A stretch of DNA of 32,237 nucleotides from a virus, in the IMG/VR virus record IMGVR_UViG_3300023116_000195, positions 1-32,237 of that record. One strand, given 5' to 3'. A model generated the notes under the pieces. It was not told where the DNA came from, made no database searches, and saw only the letters and a list, made by a program, of their open reading frames with translations. Positions 3,773 through 24,408 of the stretch are shown here, piece after piece. How positions within the stretch are numbered: the stretch's first letter is position 1; each line of letters starts with the position of its first letter. The position numbers and the translations under genes were made by a program.

Positions 3773-5014
3773 CTATACCAGTGCGAGGGGAGGAATACCT
3801 TTCACGAAGATAGCATCAACCACATTCTGAAGGCGTTTGATTGTAGCAGCACCGTAGTTATTGTGGACAGGGACTGAAACAAATCCACAAGACTTACGGT
3901 AGAACTGACACTGACCAGGGGTAAGTTTGCCAGAGGCAATGTCAGCAGCATCGTTGCGATCAATACGAATCACACGACCGATAGTCTGTGCCATCTCAAC
4001 AACATTCAAGTTGCGAAGAAGGATGCAGTGAGTCAACCCAGGGACGTTGATACCTTCAGACAAAATAGAATAGTGGAAGACCACAAACTTCTTAGAAGGA
4101 TCACTACCCCAAGCAGTCAGAGTGTTGAAAAACTCTTCACGGTTGACCTTACGATCATCGACATATGCACCGAACTTACTAGTAATATGTAGGACGTGAT
4201 AGTCACGATCTTTGAGTTGCTGAATCATATCAGACTGCCCCAGCATACGCCCCAGGACGCGACTGGAAGGCGCTGCAACCAGCACCTTTGCTGCCTGGTT
4301 ATCATCAAGGTTGTCAATGATGTTAGAGACGGTATCAGCGTCGATCTGAGCAGCACTGTCCTTAGTGCGGTCAGCATTGGTCTCAATGCCAACAACAACA
4401 GGAGGAATGATGCTACCGTTATTGATCAGTTCAGGTGCAGGAACGTTGCAGATAACATTACCAAACACAGTGGTGTTGTTCATCCCACGATCATGCCGAC
4501 GTGATTGACGTGGTGTAGCAGTAAAGAAGAATGAACGATCTGCAAAGTTAGAGCAAGCAGCAACAGGAACAAAGAATTGCTTAGTGCAAGCATTGTGCGC
4601 TTCGTCAAAGTAAGCCACGTCGATGTCAATACCAGCATCAACAACACGACGTAATGAATGATAGGTAGTGAAGATAATGCAGGACTCATCGGCAGTACGG
4701 GCAACATTATTAAACAGAGCAATCTTCTCGGACTTAGTGCTGCTGAAGTAGTGAGTCTCACCGCTGTGGCAGTGAGCAACGTGGACAGAGTTGCTGTCGA
4801 TCTGTTGCATAAACTCCTCGCACAGTTGATTAGCGAGAAGGATACGAGGAGCAACCACAACAATGGTTTGAGGACCGTCAGCGAGCAGACGCAGCGCGTG
4901 ACGGATCATGATCATGGTCTTGCCACCGCCTGTGGGGACAAGCACTTGACCCTTAGCAGCACTGCTCATAGAATCGAGAGCACGTTGCTGGTGGGGGCGG
5001 AGAGTGATGGTCAA
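3773..5014 (-). CDS. SF2 DNA/RNA helicase (UvsW-like or Res-type)
   Basis: A 413-residue superfamily 2 helicase. An N-terminal RPHQQ (residues 6-10) precedes Walker A VPTGGGKT (26-33), motif II DEAH (137-140), motif III TAT (165-167) and motif VI QTIGRVIR (343-350), so both RecA-like domains are present. The start is a TTG at 5012-5014: no upstream ATG is possible in frame, and the next ATG (residue 16) would delete the RPHQQ motif. T4 UvsW (about 590 aa) has the same core and drives fork regression and branch migration. This protein lacks the UvsW N-terminal domain, so the orthology is uncertain and a type III restriction-like helicase is the alternative. It is the first gene of the small-gene operon, under the promoter at 5038-5067. 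Confidence 0.88.
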   Translation of the reverse strand: MTITLRPHQQRALDSMSSAAKGQVLVPTGGGKTMIMIRHALRLLADGPQTIVVVAPRILLANQLCEEFMQQIDSNSVHVAHCHSGETHYFSSTKSEKIALFNNVARTADESCIIFTTYHSLRRVVDAGIDIDVAYFDEAHNACTKQFFVPVAACSNFADRSFFFTATPRQSRRHDRGMNNTTVFGNVICNVPAPELINNGSIIPPVVVGIETNADRTKDSAAQIDADTVSNIIDNLDDNQAAKVLVAAPSSRVLGRMLGQSDMIQQLKDRDYHVLHITSKFGAYVDDRKVNREEFFNTLTAWGSDPSKKFVVFHYSILSEGINVPGLTHCILLRNLNVVEMAQTIGRVIRIDRNDAADIASGKLTPGQCQFYRKSCGFVSVPVHNNYGAATIKRLQNVVDAIFVKGIPPLALV

Positions 5015-5092: not shown

Positions 5093-6088
5093 CTATGCGT
5101 TTTCAGGTCTCTTGAACTTCTTAGAGATCTTTATAGCGTTTGCCATAACTGCATCTCCAATCTGATTACGAGGTCCAGCATCACGATACATAGCAGATTG
5201 ACGATACTTGTCAAGAATGTTGAAGAAGATATATCGATGTGCATTAGCATCAATGAAACCCTTTGAAAGAGTTGTCTGGTTCTCTACTTGATTGAGAACA
5301 CTTGTTAGATACTTCCATAACAACTTCTCGGAACCATTCTCTAAAACATCATCCATAAAGTGTGCCATAAGACAACATGCACGGTACATAACTCCCGTCA
5401 TATATTTGTCTTTGTGGAAACCAAACATTTCCTTCCACAAAATGTATCCAGACCATAGACGTTCCATGGTATCAGGATGATCCATCTTGTAGTCTGAAGT
5501 GGCAGCAATGAGAAACTGGTTGAATGATTTCAGTTCTACTGCATCCTCTTCAGTAGATCCAAATCCATCAATATTCAAGTTAAGTTCTCTGAGAACTCTC
5601 TCTATCCAGAGTGATACTGGTTCATCAAATACTACACCCGCACGAATCTCATCAACCTTGTTGAGTTTCTTACGTTGAGTATTCAGAGCATAAAAGATCT
5701 CTGCCTCAATCTTCTCACATTCCTCTAGAGTCGCATTTTCATCATGCTCATAAACAAATGCAGGGAACTTGACACCCTCTTTACCTGCTCCTGAGAGGAA
5801 ATATAGAACTGCCTTGTGCTGCCCATCAATCAACCAGTCACCACCATTAGGTCCAAGTGACTTAGGACGACGTGCAACTACTGCAGGGACGAGAAGTTTC
5901 AGATCTAACTTCTTATACTTTTTGATAGAAAAGACGCTCAAAATACGCTGATAAAGCTTCGATACCTTCAGAAGTCCAGGATCGACATAGTATTCGATAA
6001 TCAGTTCTTTTCCAATGTATCCGTGCTCAACGGATTTTACCAACTTGGTATTAGAAGCAAGCTGGTGGATGTAATTAAAGCTATCCAT
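5093..6088 (-). CDS. ParB-like / DGQH-domain protein, 331 aa
   Basis: ATG at 6086-6088 preceded by AAGGAG. An N-terminal ParB/sulfiredoxin-like fold is suggested by strands that set a pair of Lys/Arg-rich segments before GGDWLIDGQHKAVLYF (residues 82-97). DGQH at 88-91 is the signature seen in ParB nucleotide-binding domains and in DndB/DGQHR proteins. A helical C-terminal part of about 200 residues ends in a basic KISKKFKRPENA tail. ParB-type domains bind CTP or DNA, or act as nucleases; which of these applies here cannot be read from the sequence. It is transcribed alone from a perfect-consensus promoter (6165-6193), implying strong early expression and perhaps a host-takeover role. Confidence 0.75.
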   Translation of the reverse strand: MDSFNYIHQLASNTKLVKSVEHGYIGKELIIEYYVDPGLLKVSKLYQRILSVFSIKKYKKLDLKLLVPAVVARRPKSLGPNGGDWLIDGQHKAVLYFLSGAGKEGVKFPAFVYEHDENATLEECEKIEAEIFYALNTQRKKLNKVDEIRAGVVFDEPVSLWIERVLRELNLNIDGFGSTEEDAVELKSFNQFLIAATSDYKMDHPDTMERLWSGYILWKEMFGFHKDKYMTGVMYRACCLMAHFMDDVLENGSEKLLWKYLTSVLNQVENQTTLSKGFIDANAHRYIFFNILDKYRQSAMYRDAGPRNQIGDAVMANAIKISKKFKRPENA

Positions 6089-6164: not shown

Positions 6165-6193
6165 ATTATATAGGTTGATTAGAAATTTGTCAA
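6165..6193 (-). promoter_or_regulatory. Consensus sigma70 promoter for the ParB-like gene
   Basis: TTGACA (6188-6193), a 17-nt spacer and TATAAT (6165-6170) on the minus strand: both hexamers perfect. The -35 lies within the last codons of the SprT-like gene. A leader of about 70 nt runs to the ATG at 6088. Confidence 0.88.
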
Positions 6194-6655
6194 CCTATTG
6201 GGGAAGAATGTCACGGTTTCCCAACGCATTTCATACTCTCCCAGTAGAAAGTCTTCCATGCGATATGCTTCCAATTCGGAAGGATCGTCACAGTATTCTA
6301 AATGATCAATGGTCTCACTTTTCCAGTATTTGTGTCCATTCTTGTGCTTGAGATCACCTTTAACCATTTGAAACATGTGCCAGAGTTCATGTAAAAGAGT
6401 TGTGCGATATAGAGTATTGTCCATATAAGTCTGAAGTTCAATCAGAAAAGTTCTAGGACGTGATGGAATGTCCTCGGTAGAACAATATCCAACCACAGAT
6501 TCTCTCTTCAGACCACGATGAACAACATCAATCGTGAGTTGATAGTTTGGTAGATACTTATCTACAAACCAGGATACAACACTCTCACACTCCCGCTTTC
6601 TATAACCATACCCACTAGGGCAGAGAATACTCTTGCTGACCAATGTAGCATCCAT
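6179..6655 (-). CDS. SprT-like zinc metalloprotease, 158 aa
   Basis: HELWH at residues 89-93 is the HExxH zinc-binding and catalytic motif, with helix context TTLLHELWHMFQMVKG. A downstream Glu in DDPSELEAY (about 123-131) is a candidate third ligand. The family resemblance is to SprT-like or other minimal phage metallopeptidases; T4 has no obvious counterpart. Substrate unknown. ATG at 6653-6655 with no clear Shine-Dalgarno. It is downstream of the 50-residue gene on the same strand, with a TATAAT box at 6691-6696 between them but no good -35. Confidence 0.75.
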   Translation of the reverse strand: MDATLVSKSILCPSGYGYRKRECESVVSWFVDKYLPNYQLTIDVVHRGLKRESVVGYCSTEDIPSRPRTFLIELQTYMDNTLYRTTLLHELWHMFQMVKGDLKHKNGHKYWKSETIDHLEYCDDPSELEAYRMEDFLLGEYEMRWETVTFFPNRLTNF

Positions 6656-13259: not shown

Positions 13260-13330
13260 AGCCCTATGACGGAATTGAACCATCCTCTGCAGTTTACAAA
13301 ACTGCTGCATCACCACAATGCTTATAGGGC
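13260..13330 (-). tRNA. tRNA-Thr (anticodon UGU)
   Basis: Cloverleaf on the minus strand. The acceptor is GCCCTAT (13324-13330) with ATAGGGC (13261-13267). The D arm is GCAT/ATGC, the anticodon stem GCAGT/ACTGC with loop TTTGTAA (UGU), the variable region AGAG, and the T arm GATGG-TTCAATT-CCGTC. The discriminator is U at 13260 and no CCA is encoded. Position 8 is A rather than the usual U, which is odd. The last codons of the HNH gene overlap its 5' end (13322-13330). It reads ACA/ACG codons. Confidence 0.85.
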
Positions 13331-13732
13331 GTGTCTGTGATAGTCTTGACGTGCTCTCTCACGTCTTTGTACTCTACCGTTACCTTTATTCTTTGCTCTG
13401 TATGTAGGAGTTTGGGAATGGCAGTTTGGGCAGATAAACCTGAGATTTTCAGGACTATCATTATAGGGGTTTCCATCAATATGGTCAACCTCTAAACTGA
13501 TTGGGTTATTGTTCCATTCAGTAATCCCACAGCACGAACATTTATAACCGTGTGTATCTGTGAGATATTCTCTCAGTGCTATTTTACCAGGCTTTTTGCC
13601 TCCAGTCAACCACTCATCAATGCGTTGTTTCTTTTGAAACTCTTGTTGACAAGTATTAGAGCAATACTTACCAGTTTTATTTGCTGGATTGTATTTAAAC
13701 TCTGTTGAGCAATGAGAGCATTTACCTAACAT
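13322..13732 (-). CDS. HNH homing endonuclease, free-standing, 136 aa
   Basis: The ATG at 13730-13732 (MLGKCSHC) is preceded by AAGG. An N-terminal zinc-finger-like pair (CSHC ... CSNTC, residues 5-28) is followed by a Lys-rich linker and a C-terminal HNH domain. This domain has CSCC, LEVDHIDGN, NLRFICPNC and HSQT, giving the H-N-H residues with two CxxC zinc knuckles. Such proteins are site-specific DNA nicking or cutting enzymes that spread their own gene. It sits between two tRNA genes, ends inside the 5' end of tRNA-Thr, and has its own late promoter in the loop of a hairpin that hides its ribosome-binding site. An upstream frame extension to 13819 runs through tRNA-Leu and is not coding. 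Confidence 0.9.
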   Translation of the reverse strand: MLGKCSHCSTEFKYNPANKTGKYCSNTCQQEFQKKQRIDEWLTGGKKPGKIALREYLTDTHGYKCSCCGITEWNNNPISLEVDHIDGNPYNDSPENLRFICPNCHSQTPTYRAKNKGNGRVQRRERARQDYHRHAL

Positions 13733-13777
13733 AGTAGACCTTTTTATTTTATTTATAAGGTCTACTAGGTTAGGCAA
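13722..13777 (-). promoter_or_regulatory. Long RNA hairpin that sequesters the HNH gene's ribosome-binding site and AUG
   Basis: Inverted repeat: arm 13757-13777 pairs with arm 13722-13742, giving 11 perfect pairs, a C-U mismatch, six more pairs, a G-U and two A-U. The loop is 14 nt and A-rich. In RNA from upstream promoters the second arm includes the AAGG Shine-Dalgarno and the AUG. RNA from the late promoter at 13750-13757 starts in the loop and lacks the first arm. The hairpin begins directly after the tRNA-Leu discriminator base. T4 genes e, soc and 49 and the endonucleases I-TevI and mobE use this arrangement. Confidence 0.85.
13750..13757 (-). promoter_or_regulatory. T4-type late promoter inside the hairpin loop
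   Basis: A perfect TATAAATA on the minus strand, predicted to start transcription near 13744, just upstream of the AAGG ribosome-binding site of the HNH gene. Confidence 0.85.
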
Positions 13778-13862
13778 TAGGAGTGGAGAGACTTGAACTC
13801 TCACGGGCACAATGCCCAACAGATTTTAAGTCTGGTGCGTCTACCGATTCCGCCACACTCCC
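13778..13862 (-). tRNA. tRNA-Leu (anticodon UAA)
   Basis: Class II tRNA of 85 nt on the minus strand. The acceptor is GGGAGTG (13856-13862) with CACTCCT. The D arm is GCG...CGC with GGTAGA, the anticodon loop CTTAAAA (UAA), the long variable arm GGGC-ATTGT-GCCC, and the T arm GAGAG-TTCAAGT-CTCTC. The discriminator is A at 13778, as leucyl-tRNA synthetase expects. Position 1:72 is a G-U pair and position 27:43 is unpaired. CCA is not encoded. It reads UUA/UUG, codons frequent in AT-rich phage genes. Confidence 0.92.
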
Positions 13863-13869
13863 AGTATAA

Positions 13870-17685: not shown

Positions 17686-18993
17686 TTAGGTTTCCTCGTT
17701 GTTAGTATCTCTTACCAAGAGTAAAGATGTTCTCATTCCAGTTGATACTAGAGTATGCACTACTGTTGCGATAGTGTAGTACCCAGACTGTTTTTTATCT
17801 GTATTTTCTTTTGTTGAGGATTTACTTTTACCTTTCAATACAGATAGGTATATTTTATCCCCAGCATGTAAATTGCTGTTACCATAGATATTTATTTCTA
17901 TTTTATTAGTAACTGCTAGAGAAGATCTTACTAATTGCTGAGATAGGGACTGTCTTATTTTATCATAACTTTCAGATTGTGCTGCAGTATCTGTATTCTC
18001 ATACATTTCATTGTTATAAACCTTAGTCATAATTCTAGTTGGACTACCACCACTGGTCGGAGTTGGACCTTTTGCAAGATGAGCAAATGATGAATAAGTT
18101 TCACCCAAATCATATATGGTTTCATTATACCTTAGGGAACTTACATCAAAAAATCCAACTAAATTAACTTTTCCTCCCATGATAGAAGATCTCTCTGCAT
18201 TATCATTTGATAATGTTTTGAAACTTAGAATGTTTCTTGATTTAGTTTCTTCATCCATTCTATCATTTGACCTTGCAGCATTATAAAAGTAGGTTTCTTT
18301 CTCTTTCTCTCCTCTAAATGTGTCCCCAGAGTCTTTATCTGGTGCTGCAAATACCTCATCTATTGGTTTGAAATTGTAACCATCAGAAGTTTCCCAAAAT
18401 AGATATCCTGCAGATCCTTTACCTTCTCCCTTAGCAACATTTGTTGGAATCGATCTCTTACATACGTGCTTGATAATAAAATCAAATGGGCGATCTCTCA
18501 TGGCAGCAAGTGTCAGTGGAACAGATTTATACTTACCTGATTTCACTTTCTTATTGCTTTTCAAATGTTGAGATAATACAGTAGGAATAATTGCATCTGT
18601 TGGTTCTTTCTGTTTGAACAACTTCTCAAATCTACTTTCTAAATTTAGGTATCCTTCAGGAGAAATACATTTCAAAGTATATACCGAAGTATCACCCGAT
18701 TTAGTTCCAGAAACAATATCATATATTCTAACCGAAACTTCAATTTCCTCTCCCTCTAGCATAATTGATTTGAAAGTCAAATCTACAGTGTCACCCGTCA
18801 AAATGGGCAACTTAGTCATCAAGTTAGTATCAGAGTCTGCTGTATCAGATATCAGCAAATTAACCTCAATCGCTGGAGAGGTAATACTTTCTCTGTAAGT
18901 AACTGTTGGCACTTTCTGTGCAGAAAGAGAAGTTCCTTTGATTTTAATATTAGAGATTTCAAAATCTCCCGCACCTTTTTGATTTTTTGCCAT
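17686..18993 (-). CDS. gp27: Baseplate hub protein gp27
   Basis: 435 residues; T4 gp27 is 391. It starts MAKNQKGAGDFEISNIKIKG, with N-terminal tube-like beta domains (DTVDLTFKSIMLEGEEIEVS, then VRIYDIVSG). Next comes the segment LNLESRFEKLFKQKEPTDAI, then AAMRDRPFDFIIKHVC typical of the hub fold, and a late INIYGNSNLHAGDKIYLSV barrel strand. The ATG overlaps the tape measure TAA (TAATG) and an AGGAG lies upstream. In T4 a gp27 trimer forms the ring that joins the six-fold tail tube to the three-fold gp5 spike. Confidence 0.85.
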   Translation of the reverse strand: MAKNQKGAGDFEISNIKIKGTSLSAQKVPTVTYRESITSPAIEVNLLISDTADSDTNLMTKLPILTGDTVDLTFKSIMLEGEEIEVSVRIYDIVSGTKSGDTSVYTLKCISPEGYLNLESRFEKLFKQKEPTDAIIPTVLSQHLKSNKKVKSGKYKSVPLTLAAMRDRPFDFIIKHVCKRSIPTNVAKGEGKGSAGYLFWETSDGYNFKPIDEVFAAPDKDSGDTFRGEKEKETYFYNAARSNDRMDEETKSRNILSFKTLSNDNAERSSIMGGKVNLVGFFDVSSLRYNETIYDLGETYSSFAHLAKGPTPTSGGSPTRIMTKVYNNEMYENTDTAAQSESYDKIRQSLSQQLVRSSLAVTNKIEINIYGNSNLHAGDKIYLSVLKGKSKSSTKENTDKKQSGYYTIATVVHTLVSTGMRTSLLLVRDTNNEET

Positions 18994-21900
18994 TATCTAT
19001 TGACTCCTAACGATAGCATGTCATAAAGACTGTTTGTAATACTTGAAGCACCAGAAGAAGAAGATACGTTTGCATCAGGTGATGCTTCAGAAACTGGATT
19101 TACAATACCACCTGGCGATGATCCAGGTGAAGCCTCACCAACATTAGTGGCAAAACTCATTCCTGTGCTTGAATTTGCACCAACAGGATTTCCAAGCATA
19201 TTGTAAAGTGCATTTGTAAGACTAGGTATATCAGTAATTTGAGTGACTCCAGGTGTACCAGTCATACCAGGAGAAACACCACTAGTAATTGGTTGTGCTC
19301 CTGAAGGATCATGAGGTGTTCCAAGTAAACCAGTAAATCCACCTGCCATAAGGATATTTCTAACCTTCAATGAAAGTTGTGGTTCTTGTCCAACAGGAAC
19401 CTGTGCAGCAGGAACGTCAAATGCTAACCCACTGCCATGATAACCCCTATCTCCAGGTCTATCAGTGGATCCAATACGAATATTGTTTCTTCTCAATAAT
19501 GCCATTGCGGCATTTCTTTGAGGTTGAGTTCTAAATGCGAGGTGTTCATGGTAGTTGCTGCCACCATGGTCAGCTCTATATCCAGAGTGACTTTTATCCC
19601 CTGTCAAATATTCAATAACTTGACCACCTTGCTGGAATCCAGCAATATTTTTAAGTGAACCAAATGCTGGTTTGAATAAATTAGCAAGTGGACTACTACC
19701 TAGACCACTAAAAATAGAAGAAGATCCAGATGAAGTTCCAGATGAAGATCCAGATCCCTCCCCACTAATATATGCAGGACCACTGCTAACACCCTTTTGT
19801 TTCATCAATTCGATCAACTTCCGAGGATAGCTAGGATCTGTAGCATAACCTTCAGACTTCAGCATCGCTGCTGCTTCATTAGGACTACCAGCATTGTTGA
19901 CACCCCTATATGACTTGTAATTCTTATACCACTGAGTCACAAGGTGATCAACGGCATCTTGAGGTGTGTCAAAGTTCTTGAAGTTAGCATTGACATAAAC
20001 GCTTTTACCATTGATAACTTCTCTAGTTCTATGATTGGTTGAAGATTCGCCGCTGGTTGCTTTGATTCCGAAGAAATTATTTTTACCAGACAAAGCTGAG
20101 CCCCATCCGCTTTCGAGTGCCCACTGAGCACTAACGAGTTGAGGATACTTTGCACCCTTCTCCTTACCCCACTGAGTAAACTTATTCCATCCCTCTTGTC
20201 TTGTTACTTTTCCACCTTCTTGGAATCTAGGAAATGCACCAAAATTGATAGCGTTTAGTCTTTGTGGACCAATAGCAGATACTGCTTTTCTATTAAGGAC
20301 ATACTCACCACGCTCAAGATAAGCAGGGACACTATCTCCAGTTGGTTTACCACCAAAGATTTGACCACCTCTTGCTTTCTTGACCGCTGCTGGATCAGCT
20401 GGAGCAGATCCGTCAGTGAACAGTGGAGATCCATTCAAACCAGTATAGTTGACAACTCCTGGTGGAAGGATTCCAGCTAAAGTTCTAGCAAGAGCACGAC
20501 CAGCAACCTCTCCAAGAGCACCACCAGCAAGAGCACCAATAAACATTCCAGGAGGACCACCAGGAGTACCGATTGATGTACCAGCAGCAGCTCCAAGAAC
20601 ACCCCCAAGAGCACCTAAGATAGCATTACCTGCACTTCCACCAGTTGCAATTTCTGCAACAGCAGCAAGTGTACCAATTAGAGCATCAACTCCAGGAATT
20701 TTGAAAGGACCTAACGCTTTTCTTGCATTCTTGACTGCCGTGAGTGCTGGTTTTGCTTTGCTACCAACTGTAGAAACAAGTGATTTTATTTTTTTAGGAT
20801 CTTTGAGATTCTTAATAGTATTGATGAGAGGTTCTGCTTTCATGATCTCATCAAGCTTTGTTGAAACTCCTCCCCTGATCTGTTCAAGAGCTTGCATTGG
20901 ATTCAAGTTTTGAATCCCTTTACCTAATGATTGTAAAGATCCACTGATTCCACTAACTGCTTTGCCACCAAGACTCTTAAAACTTCCACCAACACCTTTT
21001 GCTAGGTCCATAGCATTTCCAGATAGTGTCATAGCACCTGCTAAAAGATTGCCACCAAAACTTTTAGCGCTTGACAAAACTCCTCTACCCAGATTCATAC
21101 CCATTGATCCAAGACCTCTAAGGTTTTGTAACCACCTTGGACCACCAGATGCTGCAATTTTTTGAGCAACTCCCTGGTCTAGCATACCAGATAAAACTCT
21201 TGCTCTATTTGCTTTACTTACATCTGCATTCTTCAATGCGTTCATGACTGAGGACTGTCTATTGCCCCCAAGCATTCTAGTTGCTCTGCCAGTAGATTCA
21301 TTAATAATACTACCAGGTCGTGCCAATACCTGATTTTTACCACCCTTCATCAATCGACTCAGGAAATTTCCACCACTATTGATTCCACCACCTCTAGGTG
21401 CAGAAAATCTACGTTGTGGTCTAATTCCAGGACCACCACCAAGCAGGTCATCAAGACCACCACCGCCGCCACCACCTTGGTTGACGACATAAACGTGCAT
21501 TGGGTTCCCACGGGTTCCCAAATCCCTACCCATTCTACCACCAGGTTTCATACCTAGCAGTTTTTGGGCAGCGGCTCCAGCAGGACCACCAAACATTCTA
21601 CCAAAAAATCCTAAAACGTTACCAAGATCGGTAACAACTTTTCCAGGATTTTTTAGATACCTATAAGTAACAGCAAGACCACCAACGCCAGTCAGCAGTT
21701 GAATAATTCCACCAAAGTCAAATTTAAGGTTACCGTCCTTATCAATAATTTTATCAAGTCCTTTGATTACATCGCCAAATCTATCTGAAACAAATCCTGC
21801 AACAAAGTTTGCAAATTTAGAAATCGCCTTTCCAAACTTATCAAATGTCTCTTGAGGAATTGAATCAATAAGCTTGAATGCCTTACCAATAGCACCACCA

Positions 21901-22523
21901 ATAAAATTACCAACAAAGGTAATAAATTTTCCAAGGTTCAGACCAATTTTATCGAGTGTTGATGTTGGAATTTTACCAATAGAGTCAACAATCGAAGCTA
22001 CTGCACCAACAAAAGAAGAAATAACTCTAGATACTAAATTACTATCTAATAGTTTTCTTATCGCAGATGCACCAATGACCCCTGAAGCAATGGTAAATAA
22101 ACCCCCTACGGGGCTGTTCATTAGTGCCCCAAGCAAACCCTTAGCTCCTGCAGCACCCTTGTTTAGGGCACCAGCAGTTGCCTTACCAGCTTTAGCTAAA
22201 GATTGATTGTTTCTAGCTTCAAGTTTACGCTCTCTTGCTTCTCTCAGTTGCCTCTGAGTTTTAATTTTTTCTTGTTTATCTCTGGCAATCTGAAGCTTCT
22301 TATCTTCAGCAAGAAGCTTCTTGATATCTCTTACATTAACATTCAGTTTCTTTAGACTTTGCCCAACAAGAACAACAGTCTTAGCAACATTAGCATATTC
22401 CTTCTGAGAAAAAGAAACATTCTTTTGTGTTTTGGCATTACCGCCCATCATGTTATCAAACTTGACAGCTTTGCTGGGTCTGATAACTATGGTACTTGTA
22501 GAGATATCTATGGTTTGAGCCAT
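18993..22523 (-). CDS. Tape measure protein with GH73-like glucosaminidase and M15-like peptidase domains, 1176 aa
   Basis: Residues about 70-110 are a charged coiled coil and 120-330 are Gly/Ala-rich hydrophobic helices. A long low-complexity middle ends in GGKPTGDSVPAYLERGEYVL, the proline-glycine signature common at the end of tape measure proteins. Residues about 775-908 resemble FlgJ/GH73 glucosaminidases (QWALESGWGSALSGKNNFFG, catalytic Glu near 803; then DAVDHLVTQWYKNY). Residues about 970-1060 hold YHEHLAF and GYHGSGLAFDVP, the HxxGxAxD-like pattern of M15-type or related peptidases. The tail is Ser/Gly rich. By position it replaces T4 gp29, which is much shorter and has no such domains. 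It would span the tail tube and digest the wall on injection. Confidence 0.82.
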   Translation of the reverse strand: MAQTIDISTSTIVIRPSKAVKFDNMMGGNAKTQKNVSFSQKEYANVAKTVVLVGQSLKKLNVNVRDIKKLLAEDKKLQIARDKQEKIKTQRQLREARERKLEARNNQSLAKAGKATAGALNKGAAGAKGLLGALMNSPVGGLFTIASGVIGASAIRKLLDSNLVSRVISSFVGAVASIVDSIGKIPTSTLDKIGLNLGKFITFVGNFIGGAIGKAFKLIDSIPQETFDKFGKAISKFANFVAGFVSDRFGDVIKGLDKIIDKDGNLKFDFGGIIQLLTGVGGLAVTYRYLKNPGKVVTDLGNVLGFFGRMFGGPAGAAAQKLLGMKPGGRMGRDLGTRGNPMHVYVVNQGGGGGGGLDDLLGGGPGIRPQRRFSAPRGGGINSGGNFLSRLMKGGKNQVLARPGSIINESTGRATRMLGGNRQSSVMNALKNADVSKANRARVLSGMLDQGVAQKIAASGGPRWLQNLRGLGSMGMNLGRGVLSSAKSFGGNLLAGAMTLSGNAMDLAKGVGGSFKSLGGKAVSGISGSLQSLGKGIQNLNPMQALEQIRGGVSTKLDEIMKAEPLINTIKNLKDPKKIKSLVSTVGSKAKPALTAVKNARKALGPFKIPGVDALIGTLAAVAEIATGGSAGNAILGALGGVLGAAAGTSIGTPGGPPGMFIGALAGGALGEVAGRALARTLAGILPPGVVNYTGLNGSPLFTDGSAPADPAAVKKARGGQIFGGKPTGDSVPAYLERGEYVLNRKAVSAIGPQRLNAINFGAFPRFQEGGKVTRQEGWNKFTQWGKEKGAKYPQLVSAQWALESGWGSALSGKNNFFGIKATSGESSTNHRTREVINGKSVYVNANFKNFDTPQDAVDHLVTQWYKNYKSYRGVNNAGSPNEAAAMLKSEGYATDPSYPRKLIELMKQKGVSSGPAYISGEGSGSSSGTSSGSSSIFSGLGSSPLANLFKPAFGSLKNIAGFQQGGQVIEYLTGDKSHSGYRADHGGSNYHEHLAFRTQPQRNAAMALLRRNNIRIGSTDRPGDRGYHGSGLAFDVPAAQVPVGQEPQLSLKVRNILMAGGFTGLLGTPHDPSGAQPITSGVSPGMTGTPGVTQITDIPSLTNALYNMLGNPVGANSSTGMSFATNVGEASPGSSPGGIVNPVSEASPDANVSSSSGASSITNSLYDMLSLGVNR

Positions 22524-22529
22524 TAGGTC

Positions 22530-22712
22530 TTACCTTGCGTTGTTTCTTTCTAATTGACGTTTTTGTTCTTCTTGTATATGTTCAGATAGCATAGTTACAT
22601 ATACATCTCTTTCCCAGGGTATTAACCCTTCAATCTCTGTCAATGACCATTTATGATGATGTATTAGGGAGAAATTAGTCTCGTAGTATGACTCAAGACT
22701 AATATATCCCAT
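22530..22712 (-). CDS. Small tail assembly chaperone-like ORF, 60 aa, possible -1 frameshift extension of gp26
   Basis: ATG at 22710-22712, two bases after the gp26 stop and in its -1 frame. It starts MGYISLESYYETNFSLIHHH and has LTEIEGLIPWERDVYVTMLS, a motif like the second members (GpE'-like, T4 gp51-like) of tail chaperone pairs. The C-terminus is charged (HIQEEQKRQLERNNAR). It can be read independently, although no Shine-Dalgarno is visible, or as the C-terminal part of a gp26 fusion of about 296 residues made at the slippery site 22721-22727. It lies immediately before the tape measure gene, exactly where tailed phages keep their frameshifted chaperones. Confidence 0.75.
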   Translation of the reverse strand: MGYISLESYYETNFSLIHHHKWSLTEIEGLIPWERDVYVTMLSEHIQEEQKRQLERNNAR

Positions 22713-22727
22713 GCTTATCCGAAAAAA
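22674..22727 (-). promoter_or_regulatory. Probable programmed -1 ribosomal frameshift site
   Basis: The minus strand reads T TTT TTC (22721-22727) in the gp26 frame, three codons before the stop counting the TTC codon. A -1 slip gives TTT TTT CGG ATA AGC ATG and enters the 60-residue ORF with no stop. A stem of eight perfect pairs (ATTAGTCT/AGACTAAT, 22696-22703 with 22674-22681) lies 17 nt downstream, farther than the usual 5-9 nt. P2 uses a T TTT TTG site at the equivalent place. Confidence 0.7.
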
Positions 22728-23419
22728 TCACCCAAACCTTCCAGAGTAACATCACTCACTACACCAGTATTTGGATTTGTTACGGTTACTTTGTGCGCTA
22801 ATTTAGGCATGGTTTCAAAAAACTTGTTAATTTTTTGAAACTGTTCGGAAGTCATTGAATCCAAAAATTCTAGTAATTCTTTTTTACTACAATCAGATGC
22901 TTCCCACACCTCTTCTTCATTACAAATTTTATCGATACAACTGGTTACAACATCATAAGGATCAACAGTTTCATTCTGAAAATTCTGACGCAAGAACATA
23001 TCCATCGATGGATATTTCATTTCAATAGTTAGACTATCATCAACTTCTACACTAGACGAATGACCTTCTGGAAACTGAACTTTGATGTCATCAACAAGAA
23101 CGCTTGTAGTTGTCGAAGTTACTTCATCATCTGGACAAACTAATGAAATTGTAATTTCTTCACCAACAGACTTGCCTCTGATGTTTAGAAAAAGATATTC
23201 AATATCAAAAGATGCTAGATCGTCAATTTTAATTCGACTGATGAGACAGTTTTTGATAACTGTTTTCATCGCATTTGCAATTTCTTTTGGATCCTCAGTT
23301 TCACTTGCTAGCATCAAGATCTTTTCTTCTTTGACTAGAAAAGGTCTATATTTTACTGGTTTTCCGCTAGAAGGAAGTTCAAGCTCATAGGTAGGTGCAG
23401 TAATCTTAGGTAAAGGCAT
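22715..23419 (-). CDS. gp26: Baseplate hub assembly protein gp26 / tail assembly chaperone
   Basis: 234 residues (T4 gp26 is 208). It starts MPLPKITAPTYELELPSSGK and has KYRPFLVKEEKILMLASE (about 19-36), FDIEYLFLNIRGKSVGE and the C-terminal block FFETMPKLAHKV. These are features of the T4 baseplate family that includes gp26. In T4, gp26 acts in hub assembly and is not abundant in the finished tail. Upstream are tandem late promoters (23441-23452). A two-codon ATG ATT TAA lies in the leader and there is no Shine-Dalgarno. It ends at the proposed frameshift site. Confidence 0.85.
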   Translation of the reverse strand: MPLPKITAPTYELELPSSGKPVKYRPFLVKEEKILMLASETEDPKEIANAMKTVIKNCLISRIKIDDLASFDIEYLFLNIRGKSVGEEITISLVCPDDEVTSTTTSVLVDDIKVQFPEGHSSSVEVDDSLTIEMKYPSMDMFLRQNFQNETVDPYDVVTSCIDKICNEEEVWEASDCSKKELLEFLDSMTSEQFQKINKFFETMPKLAHKVTVTNPNTGVVSDVTLEGLGDFFG

Positions 23420-23463: not shown

Positions 23464-24408
23464 TCAATCATCGCTTCCACCACCCTTACTTCCACCACTA
23501 GCAGATTTACCAGCTTTAGTTGCATTTGGATTGAGATTAGCGGCGCTTCGTTGCATTGCTTCATTCAATTCAGCACTAGGAGTAAAGAATGGACTGTCAC
23601 CTGTGGTAAACGCACCTTCAAATTTGACCCTATCGCTGATAGCAAAAATCTTATTGTCATATGGATTTGAATTAGAATATATCTTCGATATATCATCACT
23701 AAGATCTAAAGACATATCACTATTCCATTGTCCACCAACTGTTTGAGAATCAGGTACTGCTGCATCTGCTGCAGTTTGTGAATTTGATGATGCTGATTTT
23801 TCTGTAGAAAGTCCACCAGTATATGAAATCGAAGTTTCATATGCAAAATTAACAGTCAATTCTAGTAAACCATTTTGACCTCCAGAAGATAGACCAAGAT
23901 CACTAATGTTTAGTGGGAATGCATTATAAATTTCTGTAGTTAGTGAGCAACTACCATCTCTTTCAAATTTTTTCAAAATAATCTTAGGATCAACATAATT
24001 ATCATAATAATTCATTCTAATATCCCTTCTAGGCATTGCTGTTGGAGATGTTACAAGATCATCTTCTCTTGGAGAAATTTGCTCCATCCAATAGTAAAAA
24101 ATATTATATAACTCCATACCACCCTCAAGAATAAATGTCATGGCAAATTCATTGAACATTCTGGTGTGAGCATATTTTCTACTTACACCAATCGCCATAT
24201 CACCCATCATGTCACCAGTTGCATATGAAACTCCAGGCATGGACATGTTAGAGATGAAAAATTCAGAAAATTCATTCAATCTCTTTACCTGATTTGCATC
24301 AGTAGCCCACCCTTTATTGCCAGCGGTTAGACCACTAAAAATTGCTTGATATCTATTATTAGACGCTGGTCCTCGCGCTAATAGTTTTTTTATGGTTGGA
24401 TATGCCAT
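23464..24408 (-). CDS. gp54: Baseplate tail tube initiator gp54
   Basis: 314 residues (T4 gp54 is 320). It starts MAYPTIKKLLARGPASNNRY and contains EFFISNMSMPGVSYATGDMM, then YAHTRMFNEFAMTFILEGGM and GSCSLTTEIYNAFPLNISDL, the tube-protein-like fold expected of gp54/gp19 relatives. A Ser/Gly-rich tail follows. It diverges from gp4-gp48-gp53 as part of one baseplate set. In T4, gp54 sits on gp48 and starts tail tube polymerisation. A GATAAATA late promoter lies 23 nt upstream. Confidence 0.82.
   Translation of the reverse strand: MAYPTIKKLLARGPASNNRYQAIFSGLTAGNKGWATDANQVKRLNEFSEFFISNMSMPGVSYATGDMMGDMAIGVSRKYAHTRMFNEFAMTFILEGGMELYNIFYYWMEQISPREDDLVTSPTAMPRRDIRMNYYDNYVDPKIILKKFERDGSCSLTTEIYNAFPLNISDLGLSSGGQNGLLELTVNFAYETSISYTGGLSTEKSASSNSQTAADAAVPDSQTVGGQWNSDMSLDLSDDISKIYSNSNPYDNKIFAISDRVKFEGAFTTGDSPFFTPSAELNEAMQRSAANLNPNATKAGKSASGGSKGGGSDD

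Follow-up and report, generated by a model that had tools for sequence, protein, structure and literature searches.

Are gp26 and gp51 of a T4-like marine cyanophage two separate proteins, or are they one gene that is read in two lengths? The question arises on the minus strand of the 32,237-nucleotide stretch of viral DNA analyzed here (the window), where an ATG at 22712 could start gp51 alone and where a slippery heptamer, T TTT TTC, lies at the 3′ end of gp26. We consider it highly probable (about 0.93) that the two constitute a single tail assembly chaperone gene whose two products would arise by −1 slippage on this heptamer. As proposed, most ribosomes would stop at the end of gp26 and produce a 234-residue short form (TAC-N). 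A minority would shift by −1 at the heptamer, where both Phe tRNAs would pair anew with TTT TTT, and would go on in the gp51 frame to produce a long form of 296 residues (TAC-NC). Sequence comparison makes this one-base slip very probable in the window's virus; that a minority of ribosomes would take it is a prediction. The interpretation of the products as a TAC-N/TAC-NC pair is well supported.

The short form, a putative tail assembly chaperone of 234 amino acids, is encoded at positions 22715..23419 (minus strand, as for all genes of this locus). In a Pfam scan it matched PF12322 (E 6e-71; 239 bits, against a cut-off of 24.5), which places it in the T4 gp26/gp51 family, and among the PHROG profiles it matched phrog_150 (E 7e-77). 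The −1 frame extension (22530..22721; 63 codons plus stop), the putative C-terminal domain of the long form, matched phrog_634 (E 5e-27) and corresponds to the domain that other records name gp51. A 60-codon gp51 ORF (22530-22712) is also listed separately within it; the position of its ATG (22710..22712) is not conserved. Upstream of gp26 is the gene for the tail tube protein (23464..24408; phrog_45, E 7e-28; PF23849, E 7e-12), and directly downstream of gp51 is a putative tape measure gene of 1176 amino acids (18993..22523), so that gp26 and gp51 occupy the position of a TAC pair and the predicted location directly before the tape measure gene holds. We assign the tape measure gene from its position and from its matches to PHROG tape measure families, which are weak and partial (best, 4e-7). 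Residues 792-909 of the same putative protein (18993-22523) carry a glucosaminidase domain (PF01832, E 1e-21), which suggests a cell-wall-cutting tape measure.

At its 3′ end, gp26 reads (minus strand) GGT TTG GGT GAT TTT TTC GGA TAA GC ATG GGA. The heptamer (22721..22727) lies in the gp26 frame, and its TTC is the second-to-last sense codon (TTC, GGA, stop). The original prediction had put it three codons before the stop; an in-frame site at the end of the gene was correctly seen, and the count holds provided that either the TTT codon or the stop is included. As that prediction also had it, a −1 slip here leads without a stop into gp51 (R-I-S-M-G-Y-I-S-L-E-S-Y-Y...) for 63 codons, giving a fusion of 296 residues; the C-terminal domain thus lies in the −1 frame 3′ of the heptamer, and the join is open. 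The listed genes of the window comprise 8,532 codons, in which canonical X XXY YYZ heptamers occur in frame 23 times. Just two of the 23 are within 10 codons of a gene end, and T TTT TTC is the only one with a long −1 extension. A second candidate frameshift, at AAATTTC near the end of the ORF at 6179-6655, was rejected, as its −1 frame reaches a stop within about 9 codons.

Is the heptamer simply how two phenylalanines happen to be spelled? The F-F pair is nearly invariant, many of the genomes are A+T-rich, and TTT TTC could be the usual spelling of a pair conserved as protein. We read the locus in 80 IMG/VR relatives, in named phages and in further contigs; 115 of the loci are from single-copy phages, and, since many relatives are close to one another, these were reduced to 44 lineages of <75% identity. 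All 115 loci have T TTT TT[C/T/G] at the slip point, and in all 115 the −1 frame into gp51 is open, for 52 to 67 codons in every locus of sufficient length. The phages with this arrangement include pelagiphage Mosig, Methylophilales phage Melnitz-2, Sinorhizobium phages phiM12 and phiM9, Acidovorax phage ACP17, Stenotrophomonas phage Mendera, and the Straboviridae phages phiAS5, LPCS28, and XZ1. Conservation of the heptamer, on which the original prediction was staked, therefore reaches far beyond the cyanophages, from pelagiphages to T4-like phages of Vibrio, Aeromonas, and Cronobacter. A T precedes TTT in 44/44 lineages (0.59 expected from each gene's codon usage), whether the preceding codon encodes D, N, S, T, or G, and the first Phe codon of the pair is TTT in 44/44 (0.63 expected from codon usage); the joint naive probability of these two biases, with shared ancestry ignored, is ~10^-23. 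Elsewhere in these genes, F-F pairs are slippery in only 3 of 45 cases, the heptamer is kept in the G+C-rich phages Mendera and ACP17, and T4 gp26, which has no downstream domain, has TTC TTT instead. By these sequence comparisons the slip site is far beyond chance, with its conservation deciding the matter, and we give the spelling explanation almost no credence.

Weighing on the other side, three distant relatives, D528, Cygsa01, and phiA8-29, lack the heptamer; they were left out of the 115. In Aeromonas phage phiA8-29 (Ackermannviridae; L163, 3721-3960), the gp51-like −1 frame continues with no ATG near its start, and the site reads AGA CTT TTC ACT; this is not a canonical heptamer, and a noncanonical slip is possible. 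Also outside the 115 counted loci is a Stenotrophomonas phage contig (L124, IMGVR_UViG_2974778117), which at about 4748-4754 has five T residues where the near-identical L123 has six. A five-T run would break both products, and it is probably a homopolymer sequencing error.

The remaining doubt concerns the start of gp51. It could be a protein in its own right: ribosomes that have terminated on gp26 might reinitiate at the ATG at 22712, or its translation might be coupled to that of gp26. This ATG follows the stop at a distance of 2 nucleotides in the window, the two genes are annotated as separate in S-PM2 and P-SSM2, an ATG lies within 8 residues of the start of the extension in 12/44 lineages, and in D528 and Cygsa01 the gp26 stop overlaps a start as TAATG. 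Yet 31 of the 44 lineages have no ATG, GTG, or TTG in the first 8 residues of the extension, and the same residues are conserved there all the same. The next start codon in those lineages usually falls within the conserved domain, at residue 18 or 19, which leaves frameshifting as the one evident means of making the domain in full. Moreover, the codon choice of the heptamer is fixed even in the lineages that have the ATG, and the T4 group has long forms in which the two parts are fused in frame. Strong hairpins in the window, P-SSM2, and S-PM2 cover the ATG or directly follow it, which also speaks against initiation there. Two wholly separate proteins are, in our judgment, very improbable.

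A combination of both routes, in which lineages such as the window's would make the frameshifted long form plus a little free gp51 domain from the ATG, is easier to accommodate but still unlikely. Heptamer and ATG do occur together, in the window clade, P-SSM2, S-PM2, XZ1, Mendera, and phiM9. Inspection revealed no clear ribosome binding site 5′ of the window's ATG, however, and the hairpins of three of these phages lie over or right after the start codon. Lambda, moreover, has no known free C-domain. A further and improbable elaboration is that a single RNA structure controls how much short form, long form, and free gp51 domain are made relative to one another in P-SSM2, S-PM2, and the window clade; the downstream hairpin would promote the −1 slip and at the same time mask the ATG. 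Were such a three-product switch real, these lineages could be halfway between frameshifting and separate genes. We retain a single gene with two product lengths as the preferred reading.

The hairpin 3′ of the heptamer (22667..22710, minus strand; supported by folding z-scores) is a possible stimulator of slippage in the window. Its 8-pair stem, ATTAGTCT/AGACTAAT at 22703-22674, starts 17 nucleotides after the heptamer, as had been noted from the window alone. The distance is less unusual than was then thought: the full fold comprises 13 pairs in the 22674-22703 arm and an outer 4-pair stem (22710-22707 with 22670-22667), and this outer stem starts 10 nucleotides after the heptamer. The folding z is −2.6 for 51 nucleotides and −4.2 for 55 nucleotides. 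The nearest relatives (L003 and L004) lack the hairpin, and we regard it from these comparisons as a real but local accessory and not as a conserved signal. Across lineages, the mean z at the junction was −1.06, versus −0.42 in control windows (p 0.01), a difference driven by a subset, S-PM2 (−7.3), the window (−4.2), P-SSM2 (−3.6), and ACP17 (−3.5); an earlier rank test for downstream structure had given no clear signal. A conserved downstream RNA structure was rejected, given that the strong stems are confined to this subset and are unrelated to one another, those of S-PM2 and P-SSM2 differing from the window's. The perfect 14-pair hairpin of S-PM2 (L083, 3221-3255; z about −7), which starts 9 nucleotides after the slippery heptamer, is the strongest of all lineages examined. 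Upstream of the site, Shine-Dalgarno-like complementarity is mildly enriched (−6.1 versus −4.8 kcal/mol expected); as a stimulator it was set aside as weak (mean p 0.36; window p 0.11).

How, then, does the T4 arrangement relate to this one? A published listing (PMC3004832) places T4 gp26 and gp51 among the hub assembly chaperones and gives gp51 as essential, with no assigned function; gp51 is needed for assembly but absent from the particle. The original prediction took them for separate genes. Two genes they are, divergent and with no frameshift, in which they differ from the window; merely separate they are not. Both are full-length matches to PF12322, the family of the window's gp26, and gp51 alone continues into phrog_634, with the same C-terminal domain as the long form. 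By sequence they are paralogues: T4 gp26 corresponds to the short form, and T4 gp51 is that protein extended, in frame and from exactly the slip point, by the gp51 domain. When only the −1 extensions of frameshift phages were used to build a profile, it matched the C terminus of 7/7 T4-group long forms (E 2.5e-3 to 6e-13) and of 0/7 T4-group short forms. No gap interrupts the alignment at the slip point (...DFF|RISM... versus ...DVF|KLLV...). T4 gp26 ends in ...EFFELL, and its E-F-F codons (GAG TTC TTT GAG) are not slippery.

There is one PF12322 gene copy in each frameshift or single-form genome tested and there are two in each T4-group genome, one of the copies in one genome (G004) being split by a frame change. 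In an unrooted tree (44 sequences), a branch with 98/97 support has every one of the 14 T4-group copies on the same side, as expected for one duplication in the group, which is the simplest reading of the sequences; some branches are long, and the direction comes from inference and is not given by rooting. Long and short forms are divergent in T4 and tandem in RB43, where they lie on one strand (L157, 3001-3744 and 3737-4294); the tandem order may reflect the original duplication. In one contig (L104, IMGVR_UViG_2974754850), a frame change at about position 5360 splits the long-form gp51 into two ORFs, which could be either an artifact or a real second recoding site.

The predicted fold of gp26 agrees with a role as a tail chaperone. 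In the AlphaFold2 model (pLDDT 89), residues 1-95 aligned by VIA-align 2 with 3FGX (Rbstp2171; Z 8.1), 2OB9 (HK97 gp13; Z 7.8), and 3KLU (YqbN; Z 7.5) over 84-85 residues at 8-11% identity, so that the N-terminal domain resembles the fold of these three proteins. They were the top three of the 999 PDB chains aligned to the model; the next, 5IR0, a protein of a phage-inducible island (PICI) element, had a Z of 5.1, and all others were at 2.5 or less. All three are named as tail assembly chaperones in an independent paper (PMC9603447). A Z near 8 in a predicted model is weak by itself, and the weight comes from the agreement of the three chaperones. The C-terminal half of gp26 (about residues 96-234) extends beyond these matches. 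Foldseek alone gave nothing significant with the gp26 model (E 1.6), PDB sequence searches with gp26 and gp51 gave nothing convincing, and VIA-align found no chaperone among the re-ranked Foldseek hits for a T4-type long form (L101 model). The predicted link to tail chaperones is thus borne out by gene position, by the short/long architecture, and by the predicted fold. The division of labor between the two forms we infer by analogy with lambda gpG/gpGT: coating of the tape measure protein would fall to the short form, and recruitment of tail tube subunits to the C-terminal domain of the long form.

Lambda gpG/gpGT resembles the pair proposed for the window in that short and long forms come from a −1 slip immediately upstream of the tape measure gene, and differs from it in sequence family and in slippery sequence, which in lambda is G GGA AAG. 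The E/E′ pair of P2, a phage with a contractile tail, shares a poly-T slippery site (T TTT TTG), and gpE is much shorter than gp26. A Pfam scan of gp26 at E 0.1 returned only PF12322 and no P2-type or other tail chaperone family. By analogy, then, gp26 would work like lambda gpG/gpGT or P2 gpE/E′ without being a sequence member of either.

The concept of a frameshifted chaperone in T4-like phages was already published in 2022, and the window is a further case. The abstract of that study, by Vladimirov, reportedly describes frameshifting as conserved in several T4-like groups and the T4 group as using separate genes. As cited in later papers (PMC10885494, PMC12846349), the study (Vladimirov, Gautam and Davidson, Virology 2022;566:9-15) deals with TAC-N and TAC-NC of T4-like phages; these accounts of it mention poly-T slippery signals in TAC-N genes (PMC12846349) and, in some T4-like phages, a short gene together with a longer fusion gene (PMC10885494). 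The connection between the T4 hub assembly proteins and classical chaperones holds, but according to these citing papers it had been made by 2022. Our results agree with the 2022 account as there described and were reached independently; to it they add the 44 lineages, the codon statistics, the tree, and the counts of start codons.

Slippage would also explain some puzzling annotations. Sullivan et al. (2010) found that cyanophage and marine vibriophage gp51 lacks the first ~200 residues of T4 gp51 and that gp51 is seemingly missing in Aeh1 (PMC3037559). The missing ~200-residue part is probably supplied by gp26 via the slip, in which case the separate gp26 and gp51 entries describe a single gene that has two products, and they ought to be re-annotated as such. 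The same slip could account for the apparent absence of gp51 that the paper noted in Aeh1. The absence of start codons near the beginning of gp51 likewise results in truncated gp51 annotations in Mosig, Melnitz-2, and phiAS5, where the annotated start lies inside the domain, and in no gp51 annotation in ACP17 and LPCS28. Finally, downstream of the tail genes of the window, genes for tRNA-Thr (tgt) and tRNA-Leu (taa) flank an ORF whose product has Cys/His motifs like those of HNH endonucleases, the cluster occupying 13260-13330, 13322-13819, and 13777-13863 on the minus strand.
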